This document shows, in pieces, positions 1,641 through 52,700 of a DNA stretch of 55,446 nt (position 1 is its first letter; the number at the start of each line of letters is the position of its first letter). The translations under genes were made by a program, and so were the position numbers. This DNA is from Oscillospiraceae bacterium (GTDB lineage: Bacteria; Bacillota; Clostridia; Oscillospirales; Ruminococcaceae). The notes under the pieces were generated by a model, which had not been told where the DNA came from, ran no database searches, and saw only the letters and a list, made by a program, of their open reading frames with translations. The stretch is from the NCBI GenBank assembly GCA_017439985.1, contig JAFSIC010000054.1:1-55446 (forward strand), written 5' to 3'.

Positions 1641-3654
1641 GTCCGTCCTCCAAGGTGAATTTCAAGGCACCGCTCCAGCTTCTCGAGCATTTGACAGAGC
1701 CGTCGCCGTAAATCATTTGATCGTCGCCAAGAATCGCTGTGTATTCCGGTCGATACATTGACATTATAGCATACTTTTCATGCAATTTTAAGAACTTTCT
1801 TTCGCCATTTGAGAGGAGGGCTCCATTCTCTGTGAAGCCGAGCTGCCAATGATCCCAAAAGCGAATACTTTCTTCCGGGGCATAACGATAATTGATGTTT
1901 TTCAGCTCCATTGCGTTCAACTCTGCCGCGGAGACAATGTGGTTTGGAGCCCAGGTTTCACAGAATTCCAGCAACTGTACTTCGTCCATTTCTTCATTAT
2001 TGGTGAGGTACAGCAAATCCAATGCTTCCGCCTTTTGACTACGCAGGATTTGTTCCCATTCCTCGATGTCCCGCTTCCGTTCCGGTGCTCCGATCAGCAC
2101 TGCTCGTCCCTCTCGACAAAGCAGAAGCGAACTGCGGCAAACATACAGCTCCGTTGCGGTGGGATACAGCAACGTTTGCACACCCATTGCCGTTGTCAGC
2201 AGCAAAAGATAGGCTGATGACAAACACAGCACCTGCCTTTTCCCTGCTCGGAAAACGTAGAGCAGCAACAGAAAAACATAGAAGAAAAGCAAGCCAAACA
2301 GAAGCAGATTATTTTCTCCGTAATACACTGAGTCTAAGTTTGCGATCCATGAAAGCAAACGGAACAAAAGAGCACACAAAAGCTGTGCCGCAGCGGCGAA
2401 TAATTTTGAAATTCCTGCAAAAGGCAGGAGGATCGCTGCCACGGCTGTGATCATAATTGGCGGAAGCAGAGGCATGACGATCAACGAGGACAATGGTGCA
2501 AGCAGCGGAAGATTGCCGAAGAAATACAGCAGGAATGGTGCTGTCAGCATATTGGCCGACAGACTGACAGCAATGATATCGATAGCCCTGCTTAAGATAC
2601 GATAAGAACAGCTTCCCTCACGAGTCACTGCAAGAAGCCTCGTTCCTTCTTTGCGCAGAATCGCTGCGATCAGCAGGATTCCCAACACAGCGGAAAAGGA
2701 AAGTAAGAAACTTTCGCTGAACATTCGCAGAGGTTCCGGCAAGAGCACAACGAGCAGCGCCGCTCCCCAGCTGTTCAGTCCGTCATTGTCCCGTTCCAAA
2801 ATCATCGCCAGAAATGCCAATGTCGTCATTACCGCAGCACGCTGAACGGATATGGTCGCACCCTCCATCAAAAGCAAAACCATCAGAAACGGCAAACTAA
2901 ATGCCGCACAAAGCTTTGGATTAAACTGCAGCAGTTGGAAGCAGGCAAAAAGCCCCGCCGCCATCATAGAAAAATGAAAACCGCTGACTGTCAGCAGGTG
3001 CAGACTTCCGCTTTTCAGAAATACATCCTTCACTCCATCGGAAAGCTCCGCCTTATCACCTAACAGCAGCCCCAGAAGTATTTCCTCGCCTTTCCCATGG
3101 AACAGGCTTTCGATGCAGCTTTTCACCAGATCACGCAGACGCAGGCAGTCCGCCTGCAAGCTGCTTTCCATCCCCAAATCGACCATATTCTGAACTTGGG
3201 CTGTCAGAATACTGCCGTCGCTCCAGTATCGGTGATTTTCCTCTTCCAAATCTGCAAGGGCTTCAAAACGATTGCCCGCTGGTATCGGTTCCATATCATA
3301 AGACCATAGCGTCAGTGTCATGTCCCGGCCTTGCATAGGCACTTTTGCTTCATAGAGAAGCGCGGAGTCAAAGACTCTGCAGTCTGTTATCAAGCCCTCC
3401 AACAGGACAGGCTCACCCACCAGTTCCAATTGAGCTTCCGCTCTTTGCTGCCAGCACAGAACAGAGATACAAGCCAGCACCGAAGCCGCTGTGCCAATCA
3501 ACAGAGCCTTCCCCTTTTTCTGCTTCCAGAGTAAAAGAAGCAACATCACAACGCTCAGCAGCGTCAGACCGATCGCCGCTTTCAGAGCATAAAAAGAGAC
3601 CGCCGTCATCACAAGATATATGCATCCTGCGAGAAACAGCGGTCGCTTAGTCAT
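1591..3654 (-). CDS. comEC: ComEC/Rec2-family competence membrane channel with degenerate nuclease domain
   Basis: DNA-uptake channel of the ComEC/Rec2 family, 687 residues. The N-terminus has several hydrophobic helices followed by an OB-like soluble domain. The core Competence domain contains SGSLHLLTVSGFHFSMMAAG, the family's H-L-x-x-x-S-G hallmark, followed by a run of membrane helices to about residue 500. Classical ComEC ends in a metallo-beta-lactamase-like domain with HxDxDH. At the equivalent place (about residue 551) this protein reads TNNEEMDEVQ, with no metal-binding histidines, so it is unlikely to cut the non-transported strand by that route. Start ATG with AAGGAGAATTCCCT before it. 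The end overlaps holA by 50 bases. Confidence 0.93.
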   Translation of the reverse strand: MTKRPLFLAGCIYLVMTAVSFYALKAAIGLTLLSVVMLLLLLWKQKKGKALLIGTAASVLACISVLCWQQRAEAQLELVGEPVLLEGLITDCRVFDSALLYEAKVPMQGRDMTLTLWSYDMEPIPAGNRFEALADLEEENHRYWSDGSILTAQVQNMVDLGMESSLQADCLRLRDLVKSCIESLFHGKGEEILLGLLLGDKAELSDGVKDVFLKSGSLHLLTVSGFHFSMMAAGLFACFQLLQFNPKLCAAFSLPFLMVLLLMEGATISVQRAAVMTTLAFLAMILERDNDGLNSWGAALLVVLLPEPLRMFSESFLLSFSAVLGILLIAAILRKEGTRLLAVTREGSCSYRILSRAIDIIAVSLSANMLTAPFLLYFFGNLPLLAPLSSLIVMPLLPPIMITAVAAILLPFAGISKLFAAAAQLLCALLFRLLSWIANLDSVYYGENNLLLFGLLFFYVFLLLLYVFRAGKRQVLCLSSAYLLLLTTAMGVQTLLYPTATELYVCRSSLLLCREGRAVLIGAPERKRDIEEWEQILRSQKAEALDLLYLTNNEEMDEVQLLEFCETWAPNHIVSAAELNAMELKNINYRYAPEESIRFWDHWQLGFTENGALLSNGERKFLKLHEKYAIMSMYRPEYTAILGDDQMIYGDGSVKCSRSWSGALKFTLEDGHDSGTGKPAAGTNQRG

Positions 3655-3677
3655 AGGGAATTCTCCTTCATCGGGAT

Positions 3678-4217
3678 TTATTCGAAGAACATTGGCAGTG
3701 GTTCCAGGAAAATGATGTCGTCGCGTTTTGCAGCATCACCTTCTGCCAAAACAGCAGCTTTGCCAACGATATTGCCTTCAGCAGTATTTACCAGCGCTTC
3801 CAGTGCACGGAGAGATTCGCCGGTGGAAATCACATCGTCCACGATCAAAACTTTTTTGCCCTTCAGATAATCCATATCTTCACCGGACAGAACCAAAGTC
3901 TGAACTTTATCTGTTGTGATGGATTTCACCTGTACGGATTTGGAATTGGTCATGTAGAGTTTATGCATTTTGCGGGCCAGAATATATTTCTTGCCGCACT
4001 GACGGGACATTTCGTAAGCCAGCGGAATACCTTTGGATTCTGCGGTCACGATCACATCAAAGTCAGGAACTTTTTTCAGCATTTCTTCTGCACAGGCAAT
4101 GGTCAGTTCTACATCGGAGAACATAACAAAACCTGCAATATAGACGCCTTCTGCGATTGGGCAGATTGGGAGCTGTCGTTTCAAACCGGCAACGGTCAGT
4201 TCATAAAATTTATCCAT
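3678..4217 (-). CDS. phosphoribosyltransferase family protein (adenine/xanthine PRTase-like)
   Basis: Type I phosphoribosyltransferase, 179 residues, probably a purine-salvage enzyme that joins a base to PRPP in the cytoplasm. The PRPP-binding loop is clear: VLIVDDVISTGES at about residues 124-136, with two acidic residues then a T-G-E/S turn. Upstream, DVIVTAESKGIPLAYEMSR matches the adenine/xanthine PRTase region. I cannot tell adenine from xanthine or another base by eye, so I leave the symbol empty. Start ATG preceded by TAGGAGGAAGAAAA. It follows hinT by 11 bases and precedes comEC, so it is part of the same minus-strand run. Confidence 0.9.
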   Translation of the reverse strand: MDKFYELTVAGLKRQLPICPIAEGVYIAGFVMFSDVELTIACAEEMLKKVPDFDVIVTAESKGIPLAYEMSRQCGKKYILARKMHKLYMTNSKSVQVKSITTDKVQTLVLSGEDMDYLKGKKVLIVDDVISTGESLRALEALVNTAEGNIVGKAAVLAEGDAAKRDDIIFLEPLPMFFE

Positions 4218-8089: not shown

Positions 8090-8374
8090 TTTTCTGACAA
8101 TAAAAAACGCTCCCGTTCCATACGACTGTATGGGACGAAAGCGAAATGATTCCGTGGTACCACCCAAATTACCCGTGCGTTTGTTGAAAACACAGGTCAC
8201 TTTGAAGCCCGTTAACGCCGGGATACGCCGCTGTTCATCACAGCGGGGCTCAGAGGCGGCCCTCTTTCGTTCTTCAGCAGAAACCTCGCAGCAAATGGTT
8301 TCCTCTCTGCAGCTGTTCCGAAAAGATTCTTCTCTTCAATGCCGATTCCTATGGATTTGTCAGAGTATGAATCC
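8090..8374 (-). promoter_or_regulatory. T-box leader (tRNA-Ala riboswitch) of alaS
   Basis: On the minus strand the leader carries the conserved T-box GGGTGGTACCACGG (8165-8152), followed by a strong terminator: CGCTTTCGTCCCATAC pairs with GTATGGAACGGGAGCG around 8143-8107, with a T6 tail. The paired T-box/terminator arrangement upstream of alaS is the textbook signature of tRNA-sensing attenuation. Stem I lies in about 8374-8220; I did not assign the specifier codon with confidence. Confidence 0.92.
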
Positions 8375-20759: not shown

Positions 20760-21605
20760 ATGAAACTCTGGGATTTATATCAACATGCTGTGGCGGATCT
20801 TTCTTCCTTGATGGACGAAGGAACCGCCTCCTTTGAAATTTACTGTTTATTGGAACATATTTTCGGCTGGAATAAACACGCTGTTTTGCTTCGTAAAGAT
20901 ACGGAATGCGATCCACAGAAAGAAAGTGACTTCCTGCAGCTGCTGGAGCGCCGTAAAAGCGGATATCCCTTGCAGTATCTGCTGGGAAGCTGGGAATTCT
21001 GGGGTTACGAATTCTCTGTCGGCGAGGGAGTATTGATCCCTCGTGCCGACACGGAGATCCTCTGTGAGACTGTTCTTGAAGCCGCAAAAGCCTTCCCCGC
21101 TCCCCGTATCGCCGACCTTTGTTCGGGCAGCGGCTGTTTGCCTGTGGTTTATTCCAAAGAGATCACTCATGCAGACGAGATTGTTGCTGTGGAGTTGTCC
21201 GAGCAGGCTCTTCCTTATCTGAAGAAAAATGTGGAGCAAAATGACTGCCGCAATGTTCGCGTCATCCACGACGATGTGCTGACCTGGACTCCGGACAAGC
21301 CTCTGCATATCATCAGCTCCAACCCTCCGTACCTCTCCGATGTGGAGATGCAGGAACTGCAGAAAGAAGTGACCTTCGAGCCGGAAATGGCCCTGCTGGC
21401 CCCGGAGAACGGCCTTTACTTCTATCGCATTCTTTCTCAGCGCTGCAAGGATTTCCTTGTTTCCGGAGGCCTGCTGGCCTTTGAAGTGGGCTGGACACAG
21501 GCCAAAGCCGTCGCCGCTCTCATGGAGCAAAACGGCTATATCAATATTCAGATTTTGCAGGACTACGGCGGCAATGACCGCGTGGTTTTGGGATATAAGG
21601 AGTGA
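20760..21605 (+). CDS. prmC: peptide chain release factor N(5)-glutamine methyltransferase
   Basis: Methylates the GGQ glutamine of release factors RF1/RF2 with S-adenosylmethionine. 281 residues: N-terminal helical domain (LYQHAVADLSSLMDEGTASFE) and a Rossmann methyltransferase with IADLCSGSGCLPVVY (SAM loop) and the catalytic SSNPPYLSD (NPPY). The N-terminal domain also contains the family's PLQYLLGSWEFWGYEF. The ATG at 20760 lies one base after the yqhQ stop. The prfA substrate gene is not in the window. Confidence 0.95.
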   Translation: MKLWDLYQHAVADLSSLMDEGTASFEIYCLLEHIFGWNKHAVLLRKDTECDPQKESDFLQLLERRKSGYPLQYLLGSWEFWGYEFSVGEGVLIPRADTEILCETVLEAAKAFPAPRIADLCSGSGCLPVVYSKEITHADEIVAVELSEQALPYLKKNVEQNDCRNVRVIHDDVLTWTPDKPLHIISSNPPYLSDVEMQELQKEVTFEPEMALLAPENGLYFYRILSQRCKDFLVSGGLLAFEVGWTQAKAVAALMEQNGYINIQILQDYGGNDRVVLGYKE

Positions 21606-51855: not shown

Positions 51856-51877
51856 CACCCTGCCTTCATGGTATAAT
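51848..51877 (+). promoter_or_regulatory. promoter of arsM
   Basis: -35 TTGCCT (51848-51853), 18-base spacer, -10 TATAAT (51872-51877). Confidence 0.6.
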
Positions 51878-51878
51878 A

Positions 51879-51896
51879 CATTGAGACTTATCAATG
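51879..51896. promoter_or_regulatory. inverted repeat at arsM start site
   Basis: CATTGA-GACTTA-TCAATG, starting two bases after the -10. A repressor site is plausible, for example for an ArsR-type protein; none is encoded nearby. Confidence 0.55.
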
Positions 51897-51910
51897 AGAG
51901 GAGCCTATCC

Positions 51911-52672
51911 ATGCCGGAAATTCACGATCAGGTTCGAAAGGATTACCAGAAGATCCTGCTTGACCCATCCAATTCTCTTGTCACCGACACCAATACTGCC
52001 GATACCATGTCTGCCAGCGTCGGCTATACTGCCGAGGAACTGGCTCTTGTTCCTGCCGAAGCCAATCTGGGCTTGGGCTGCGGCAATCCTCTGATCGCTG
52101 CTGATTTGCAGCCGGGCGAAGTGGTCATCGACCTGGGTTCCGGCGCGGGACTGGACTGCTTCCTTGCCGGAGTGAAAATCGGCCGCCGCGGTCGTGCCAT
52201 CGGTGTGGATATGACCCCGGAAATGCTGTCCAAGGCTCGCGACATTGCCAAGAAAAACCGTATCCGCAACGTAGAATTCCGTCTGGGAGAGATTGAAAAT
52301 CTCCCTGCCGCTGATAACTGCGCTGATGTCTGCATTTCCAACTGCGTCATCAATCTCTCGGACAACAAGCCCCGCGTCTATCGTGAGATTTTCCGTGTGC
52401 TGAAACCGGGCGGTCGCCTTTCCATCTGCGATATCGTCATTATGAAAGAGCTGCCGGAGGAAATGCAGGATAATCCTGATATGCATTCCTGCTGAGTGAG
52501 CGGCGCTTCTTCGGTCGAAGAACTGGAAAATATCATCCGCCGTGCCGGCTTTGTGGACGTTTCCGTTAAAGAAAAACCGGTCTCCAAGGAGTACGAGGAA
52601 AAATGGGGACGTAGTCTGTCCGTCGGTCAGTACATCATGTCCTCCACCATCACCGCACGAAAACCGGAATAA
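51911..52672 (+). CDS. arsM: arsenite S-adenosylmethyltransferase, probable selenoprotein (UGA at 52493-52495 = Sec)
   Basis: 253 residues if UGA is decoded as selenocysteine. It methylates As(III) using SAM in characterised relatives. ANLGLGCGNPLIAADLQPGE, VVIDLGSGAGLDCFLAG, IGVDMTPEMLSKA, VEFRLGEIENLPAAD and CISNCVINLSDNKPRVYREIFRVLKPGGRL are all ArsM motifs. ArsM has conserved As-binding cysteines: here C145 in SNCVINL, and the place of the next, usually G-C-V/I-x-G-A, reads C194-UGA-V-S-G-A. After the UGA, 58 family-like codons (VEELENIIRRAGFVDVSVKE) run to TAA 52670, then a terminator. A hairpin like a bacterial SECIS follows the UGA. The family's N-terminal Cys-Cys is missing. Start ATG with GAGGAGCCTATCC. 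If the cell lacks SelB/SelA the product would be a 194-residue fragment. Confidence 0.82.
52507..52522 (+). promoter_or_regulatory. SECIS-like hairpin after arsM UGA
   Basis: Perfect 6-bp stem TTCTTC / GAAGAA with loop GGTC. The stem starts 11 bases after the UGA, the same distance as the upper stem in E. coli fdhF, and the loop carries the G-U pair used by SelB in that element. It lies in codons that also fit the protein. Confidence 0.75.
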
Positions 52673-52675
52673 ATC

Positions 52676-52700
52676 AAAGCACCCAAACGGGTGCTTTTTC
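52676..52700 (+). terminator. terminator of arsM
   Basis: AAAGCACCC-AAAC-GGGTGCTTT with T5, starting four bases after the TAA. It shows that the gene ends here and not at the UGA. Confidence 0.92.

Follow-up and report, generated by a model that had tools for sequence, protein, structure and literature searches.

Inside an arsM-like gene of an Oscillospiraceae bacterium the reading frame is interrupted once, by TGA, raising the question whether this codon ends the gene or encodes selenocysteine (Sec) at a position where the enzyme would hold arsenic. We refer to the whole stretch of DNA analysed, 55,446 nucleotides in length, as the window. Read directly, the frame starts with ATG at 51911 and ends with TAA at 52670–52672, and its sole in-frame TGA, at 52493–52495, is codon 195. 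C194 stands just before the TGA, V-S-G-A just after it, and 58 sense codons lie between it and the TAA. These readings bear out a preliminary description of the locus, which had also reported family-like codons beyond the TGA and a strong terminator near the TAA: family-like sequence does continue past the TGA, and a terminator-like stem, recognized by eye, begins 3–4 bases after the TAA. The features are as follows, with counts referring to the 105 listed homologous loci described below.

51872–51877, plus strand: possible -10 box of arsM, TATAAT (by eye), with TTGCCT 18 bases upstream
51896–51903, plus strand: possible ribosome-binding site GAGAGGAG (by eye), 7 bases before the ATG
51911–52672, plus strand: predicted arsM selenoprotein gene, coding for 253 residues if the TGA is Sec; 300.4 bits against NF008823 (cut-off 263)
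52079–52081, plus strand: Cys57 codon (TGC), aligned with CmArsM Cys72; Cys in 24 of 25 listed Sec loci (one gap) and 77 of 80 listed Cys loci (one Ser, two gaps)
52343–52345, plus strand: Cys145 codon (TGC), opposite CmArsM Cys174 in the alignment; every one of the 105 listed loci has Cys
52490–52492, plus strand: Cys194 codon (TGC), vicinal to the predicted Sec195; trait of an eight-member subgroup
52493–52495, plus strand: in-frame TGA, predicted Sec195, aligned with CmArsM Cys224; TGA in 25, Cys in 80 and any other residue in 0 of the 105 listed loci
52507–52522, plus strand: SECIS-like hairpin, stem UUCUUC/GAAGAA, apical loop GGUC; the five inner pairs form in all 20 TGA loci of the main group (defined below) and in 9 of the 80 Cys loci, with compensatory changes in wobble pairs
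52676–52699, plus strand: terminator-like hairpin AAAGCACCC-AAAC-GGGTGCTTT, then a T run (by eye; 9-bp stem)

The read-through protein matches the NCBIfam arsenite methyltransferase model NF008823 over positions 6–269 of 272, and Pfam methyltransferase domains also match it. Its best relatives of solved structure are arsenic methyltransferases, including CmArsM (4fr0, 4kw7). By residue count on the alignment, Cys57, Cys145 and residue 195 of the window protein stand opposite C72, C174 and C224 of CmArsM. These three cysteines are As-binding sites, and the C174A and C224A mutants methylate neither arsenite nor methylarsenite (PMC3877260); their counterparts in human AS3MT are C61, C156 and C206 (PMC4211708). 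Because residue 195 aligns with C224, a known As ligand, the TGA sits at an established arsenic ligand. One rule for recognizing ArsMs asks for at least three of four conserved cysteines, 44, 72, 174 and 224 in CmArsM (PMC5552862), and the window protein has three, C57, C145 and U195, with Sec counted as Cys. The fourth, C44, faces Asp31 in the alignment; nor, across the 80 listed Cys loci, does Cys rank with the six most frequent letters in this column.

Which codon do the relatives carry at this site? The homolog set comprises 105 listed loci: the best 80 of 543 confirmed relatives from a scan of genome contigs, and 25 more, the window's own included, obtained by searching 148 genomes from the family and 391 from the class. 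Three of these 25 come from the family and the rest from the class with E ≤ 1e-50; in the family search the three full-length ArsM matches were counted, and 27 loci whose matches were weaker (E 1e-12 or worse) were left out. Across this set (the best 80 of 543 plus 25) the codon is TGA in 25 loci, TGC in 43 and TGT in 37, and nothing else occurs. Cys or UGA at the site was the support that the preliminary description had said to look for in homologs, and all 105 listed loci, 80 with Cys and 25 with TGA, supply it. In the 148-genome family sample, full-length ArsMs (E ≤ 1e-100) are found in the window genome and in two of its genus, all three with TGA; the remaining matches, in 101 further genomes, are weak (E 1e-12 or worse). 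Ten of the listed TGA loci are from Bacillota and the others from the window's own class; the TGA form of arsM is present in Paraclostridium benzoelyticum and four Clostridium genomes among the listed loci.

If the TGA were an ordinary stop, a recent nonsense mutation or an assembly error, arsM would be truncated or decaying. A plain ORF reading does end at the TGA, 59 residues short and with the arsenic ligand left out. We compared identity to the window protein before and after the TGA in eight of the 24 other TGA loci and four of the 80 Cys loci, some N-terminal parts being too short owing to start choice. In six of the eight TGA relatives, identity past the TGA is within 2 points of the upstream value or higher: 85/84% in L101, a locus from the window's own genus, 80/83% in L020, 77/79% in L021, 73/71% in L022, 73/72% in L023 and 61/69% in L102. 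In the other two, as would suit a stop, it falls, from 82 to 64% in L024 and from 66 to 58% in L025 (the upstream part of both being shortened by wrong start choice). The four Cys-type homologs go from 54–58% before the site to 36–40% after it. An in-frame UGA opposite Cys in homologs, with coding conservation beyond, is the pattern that marks bacterial selenoproteins, and it is the pattern found here, with the drop in two of the eight TGA relatives.

The phylogeny bears on the same question. In a maximum-likelihood tree of the 105 listed loci, built from proteins of which some N-terminal parts are too short owing to start-codon choice, all TGA loci fall into a single group (support 100/93, the bootstrap not fully settled). 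Since this one group holds varied TGA loci, the TGA is not a recent mutation, and its presence in 24 other loci excludes sequencing error as the sole cause. The TGA of a prmC-like gene at 21603–21605 of the window (plus strand) served as a negative control. Six bases beyond this ordinary stop, in the same frame, lies a HAD-like gene (both genes named by eye), and read-through gives a long fused frame that runs into that different gene, not into family-like sequence. With TGA at precisely the arsM codon in 25 of the 105 listed loci, Cys in the other 80, and neither TAA, TAG nor another sense codon in any, we consider an ordinary stop extremely unlikely, the unremarkable folding energy of the hairpin considered next being a further point on its side. 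The TGA frame in arsM is confirmed as a genuine observation.

Bacterial SECIS elements are hairpins just downstream of the UGA, about 16–37 nt from it, with a G at the first or second loop base. In the window, GTGAGCGGCGC (11 nt) separates the TGA from TTCTTC (52507–52512), GGTC (52513–52516) and GAAGAA (52517–52522), so the stem that the preliminary description had placed 11 bases past the TGA is there as reported. The hairpin, with its loop GGUC 17 nt after the UGA, is conserved with compensatory change in the main group, by which we mean the 20 listed TGA loci with the peptide ASSVE after the site; the folding energy is not exceptional. ASSVE occurs in 20 of the 25 listed TGA loci and in 0 of the 80 Cys loci, which suggests that an RNA element fixes the protein sequence at this point. 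Counting 6-bp stems, G-U pairs included, whose 4-nt loop lies exactly 17 nt on, we find one at 14 of the 2156 TGA triplets on both strands of the window (0.65%). Six TGA codons in the window have 150 or more open codons ahead of them and 50 or more behind, and among these six the arsM TGA alone has such a stem; this strict definition was drawn post hoc from the observed hairpin. By a looser definition, 281 of the 2156 triplets (13%) and three of the six long-frame codons have a hairpin.

Folding energy was rejected as evidence for a SECIS. The window hairpin has a z of -0.24 against shuffles, 79 of 200 of which fold at least as well, and when seven other sequences were folded against their own shuffles, two did clearly better (z -1.95 and -2.48). 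Best-hairpin energies separate Sec from Cys genes weakly, with means of -4.5 and -3.8 kcal/mol; among the listed loci, 24 of 25 Sec and 43 of 80 Cys genes have a best hairpin at -3 kcal/mol or lower. Because this separation is weak, we used pairing at a fixed position and covariation instead. The inner five pairs are formed at the fixed position in all 20 main-group TGA loci and in 9 of the 80 Cys loci. Third codon positions, where protein constraint is slight, are joined in two of the six pairs (columns 15-30 and 18-27). There, U-A is exchanged for C-G in three loci at 15-30 and in two at 18-27, never on one side only at 18-27; pair 15-30 is U-G in two loci and unpaired in four of the 20 main-group loci. 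Fisher tests of this wobble-pair covariation give p values of 0.009 (15-30) and 0.005 (18-27), uncorrected for relatedness.

With 19 distinct rows, the share of paired cells is 96.5%, compared with 92.9% in shuffles; five cells are changed on both sides, compared with 1.0 in shuffles, and the covariation score is 0.150. None of 500 shuffles reaches the paired-cell, both-sides-cell or covariation value; 66 reach the number of pairs with a both-sides change and 337 the number of pair types. In slid alignments 41–62% of cells pair, with a covariation score of up to 0.135 at slide +1, and in two of the 20 main-group loci (L020 and L028) another hairpin is better by energy. The putative element sits where a bacterial SECIS should, and the evidence for it is comparative. 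Of the hairpin check that the preliminary description had proposed, conservation and compensatory change came out in the hairpin's favour, while the folding energy (z -0.24) did not.

Five of the 25 TGA loci lack the main-group hairpin and have another peptide and other hairpins, with the loop 20–23 bases after the codon. A divergent group of Sec-type ArsMs (L137, L139, L145, L146 and L147), without ASSVE and without a Cys near the Sec, has different SECIS-like hairpins, with loops GGA, AGGAA and GGC. In an Rfam scan of the whole window at the gathering threshold, the sole match is a T-box leader (RF00230) at 8128–8348 on the minus strand, with 97.1 bits, and none is at arsM.

Does the genome encode the means to insert Sec? 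selD, selA, selB and selC lie together on contig C48 of the genome that carries arsM, at about 101.6–106.3 kb; all four genes that the preliminary description had suggested looking for are thus present, at one locus. The tRNA-Sec, with anticodon TCA, adjoins selB. The selD frame itself contains one TGA (L002 3690–3692), in the context G-A-G-U-A-S-K, which matches UxxK, the motif given for Sec-type SelD (PMC13188914). The frame of glycine reductase A (GrdA) also contains one TGA (L155, G000:C53:13649-14089). selA was sought in 28 genomes, 13 TGA carriers and 15 of 70 Cys carriers, the latter an unbalanced sample in which 13 of 15 are Bacilli. It was found in all 13 TGA carriers tested (E 1e-143 or better); among the 15 Cys carriers tested, two have a strong match (E 1e-140 or better), four a weak one that nonetheless passes Pfam's cut-off (E 1e-10 to 1e-15) and nine none. 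These data bear on an alternative that has nothing specific in its favour, namely that UGA stands for a different amino acid, for instance Trp under code 4, or is passed without selenium being inserted. All 80 listed non-TGA homologs have Cys and none has Trp, prmC in the window ends in TGA with the next gene starting behind it, and a tRNA-Sec with anticodon TCA is encoded beside selB. We find this alternative hardly credible.

A selenoprotein methyltransferase could still act on a physiological substrate other than arsenic, and the surroundings of the window gene would allow it. arsM lies between a GNAT acetyltransferase gene and uvrB; the three neighbours scanned, GNAT acetyltransferase, ABC ATPase and uvrB, include no arsenic operon or ars gene, and a search of the window genome for Acr3 gave no hit. 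The three As-ligand positions, however, are all kept, and the same genome has a row of genes on C48 (L154, G000:C48:157000-165000) for an ArsR-like domain, a cobW-like GTPase, a thioredoxin-like protein and an ArsP_1 permease. In this row the ArsR-like domain is in one continuous frame with the cobW-like GTPase, and the ArsR-like and thioredoxin-like calls were made by eye. The permease contains PFCSCSSIP; the motif PXCSCXXXP is given as a mark of the methylarsenite efflux permease ArsP (PMC5552862). In NCBIfam it comes closest to the models for SaoE and a Cu/Zn transporter but falls far short of either cut-off, so the name ArsP is not certain. A second, weaker ArsP_1 match lies on contig C7 of the window genome.

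In Faecalicatena contorta ET52 (L023), cobW-like, thioredoxin-like and ArsP_1 permease genes are followed directly by the Sec arsM. The L154 row has the gene order that precedes arsM in L023, but it lies on another contig than the window arsM. Within L023, at 2530–3747, a DUF2703 domain is in frame ahead of the Sec-type ArsM. Selected ORFs were scanned in the flanks of 17 TGA loci, and at least four of the 16 other than the window's have an ArsR-type regulator (L025, L026 and L029) or Acr3 (L130) nearby. A DUF819 protein is the single upstream neighbour scanned at L020; at L102 the small neighbour scanned gave no match. On balance, arsenic is favoured as the probable substrate of the window enzyme, and a substrate of another kind seems to us quite unlikely.

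Taken at the level of sequence, the coding frame through the UGA, the exchange of Cys and UGA at the As ligand, the conserved hairpin and the complete Sec gene set are established. The window gene very probably encodes a stand-alone, SAM-dependent ArsM that binds and methylates As(III), with residue 195 inserted as Sec through SelB, tRNA-Sec and the hairpin. The UGA would be decoded by SelB and tRNA-Sec, aided by the hairpin that starts 11 bases downstream. The Sec195 selenol and Cys145, together with Cys57 for the first methylation, would bind As(III) beside SAM, and the methyl group would move from SAM to arsenic. We infer As(III) binding and methylation from the family; the selenol may speed As binding or the reductive recycling step. 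A Sec at an As(III) ligand of ArsM, the mechanism put forward in the preliminary description, appears well supported by the match of the site to CmArsM Cys224, by homologs that carry Cys or TGA there, by the sel genes and by the conserved hairpin.

The Sec-type enzymes also differ from the Cys type in where their other cysteines lie. N-terminal cysteines were counted in up to 55 residues before the GCG motif, with the frame read upstream regardless of start. CC or CGC precedes this motif in 79 of the 80 listed Cys loci, the exception (L072) ending at a contig end; N-terminal vicinal cysteines are therefore present in 79 of the 79 listed Cys-type ArsMs that can be assessed. Three or four N-terminal cysteines are found in 67 of the Cys loci and only two in three. 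Among the 25 listed Sec-type ArsMs, 12 have one N-terminal vicinal pair and 13 have none. A cysteine stands directly before the Sec in eight of the 25 TGA loci, two residues before it in 12, and at neither position in five; either position is occupied in 20 of 25 Sec against 5 of 80 Cys loci among those listed. The 12 Cys-x-Sec loci have exactly two N-terminal cysteines, as one CC; the eight Cys-Sec loci, the window's included, and the five other Sec loci are without an N-terminal pair. Since all Sec loci form one tree group, these cysteine changes represent few evolutionary events, not 25.

The vicinal Cys-Sec pair (194-195) of the preliminary description is thus present in the window protein but is not general, being found in eight of the 25 TGA loci, and we rejected it as a general feature of Sec-type ArsMs. 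A tentative reading, which we hold to be possible but rather doubtful, is that selenium at the third arsenic ligand came with a rebuilt thiol relay: in the window's subgroup Cys194 would replace the N-terminal thiols, and each methylation would be followed by a redox step closed through a Cys-Sec selenenylsulfide instead of an N-terminal disulfide. Strict replacement in this relay is argued against by the five Sec enzymes that have neither cysteine; Cys-Sec as a strict substitute for the N-terminal cysteines is unsupported. Two details, the loss of N-terminal cysteines and the Cys-Sec subgroup, may perhaps be new; a limited literature search found no statement on N-terminal cysteine redistribution in Sec-type ArsMs.

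What would selenium in this enzyme mean? The sequence comparisons, for a genome that has the full set of Sec genes, indicate that arsenic methylation in some Clostridia would depend on selenium. If so, selenium supply could be an overlooked control on anaerobic arsenic methylation, and a Sec-type arsM cloned in a host unable to decode the foreign SECIS would be expected to yield a truncated product. Three papers on anaerobic arsenic methylators (PMC11653729, PMC9213503 and PMC12124457) do not discuss selenium in ArsM in their main text, as judged by a word search for 'selen'; the one, four and zero occurrences are a reference title and Selenomonadales. By title or abstract opening, we found no report on the kinetics or structure of a bacterial Sec-type ArsM, in a search that left subscription journals mostly uncovered.

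The Sec-type ArsM itself is already known, and the novelty of the window gene is low; the caution in the preliminary description that such proteins might be in databases was correct, the family standing in published selenoprotein lists (PMC13188914, PMC9312934, PMC5029168, PMC7435645). A 2026 review gives arsenite methyltransferase NF008823/PRK11873, with the motif UxxG, one Sec and the accession WP_011987699.1, as 'Experimentally verified', citing Fomenko et al. 2007 Science (PMC13188914); the text of the same review also places the family with selenoproteins that for the most part came from bioinformatics and whose functions are largely uncharacterized. PMC9312934 gives this family and accession as verified too, with no motif. 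A 2016 survey lists 41 arsenite methyltransferase selenoproteins in 39 organisms (PMC5029168), arsenite methyltransferase is named among selenoprotein families in PMC2398784, and it appears in the selenoprotein table of PMC7435645.

Compared with these systems, the window protein belongs to the NF008823/PRK11873 family, being above its cut-off and having U-V-S-G as its UxxG motif; its subgroup is set apart by the Cys194-Sec195 pair and the absent N-terminal cysteines. UxxG is also the motif given for fused ArsM-type selenoproteins (PMC13188914), ArsM_AhpD_UU (NF041537), ArsM_DUF2284_UU (NF041536) and MTase_UXPK_star (NF047649), which share a homologous ArsM-like domain. The window protein stays far below the cut-offs of their models, with 161.3 of 510, 144.2 of 575 and 149.6 of 460 bits, respectively. 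Those proteins are multi-Sec fusions with models of 283–459 positions, whereas the window protein stands alone, with a single Sec, and ends at residue 253. With CmArsM and human AS3MT it has the catalytic domain in common. CmArsM differs in having Cys at the third ligand, where the window protein has its predicted Sec, in having C44, to which the window protein has no equivalent, and in its longer chains of 377–383 residues, the alignment taking in residues 2–219 of the window protein.
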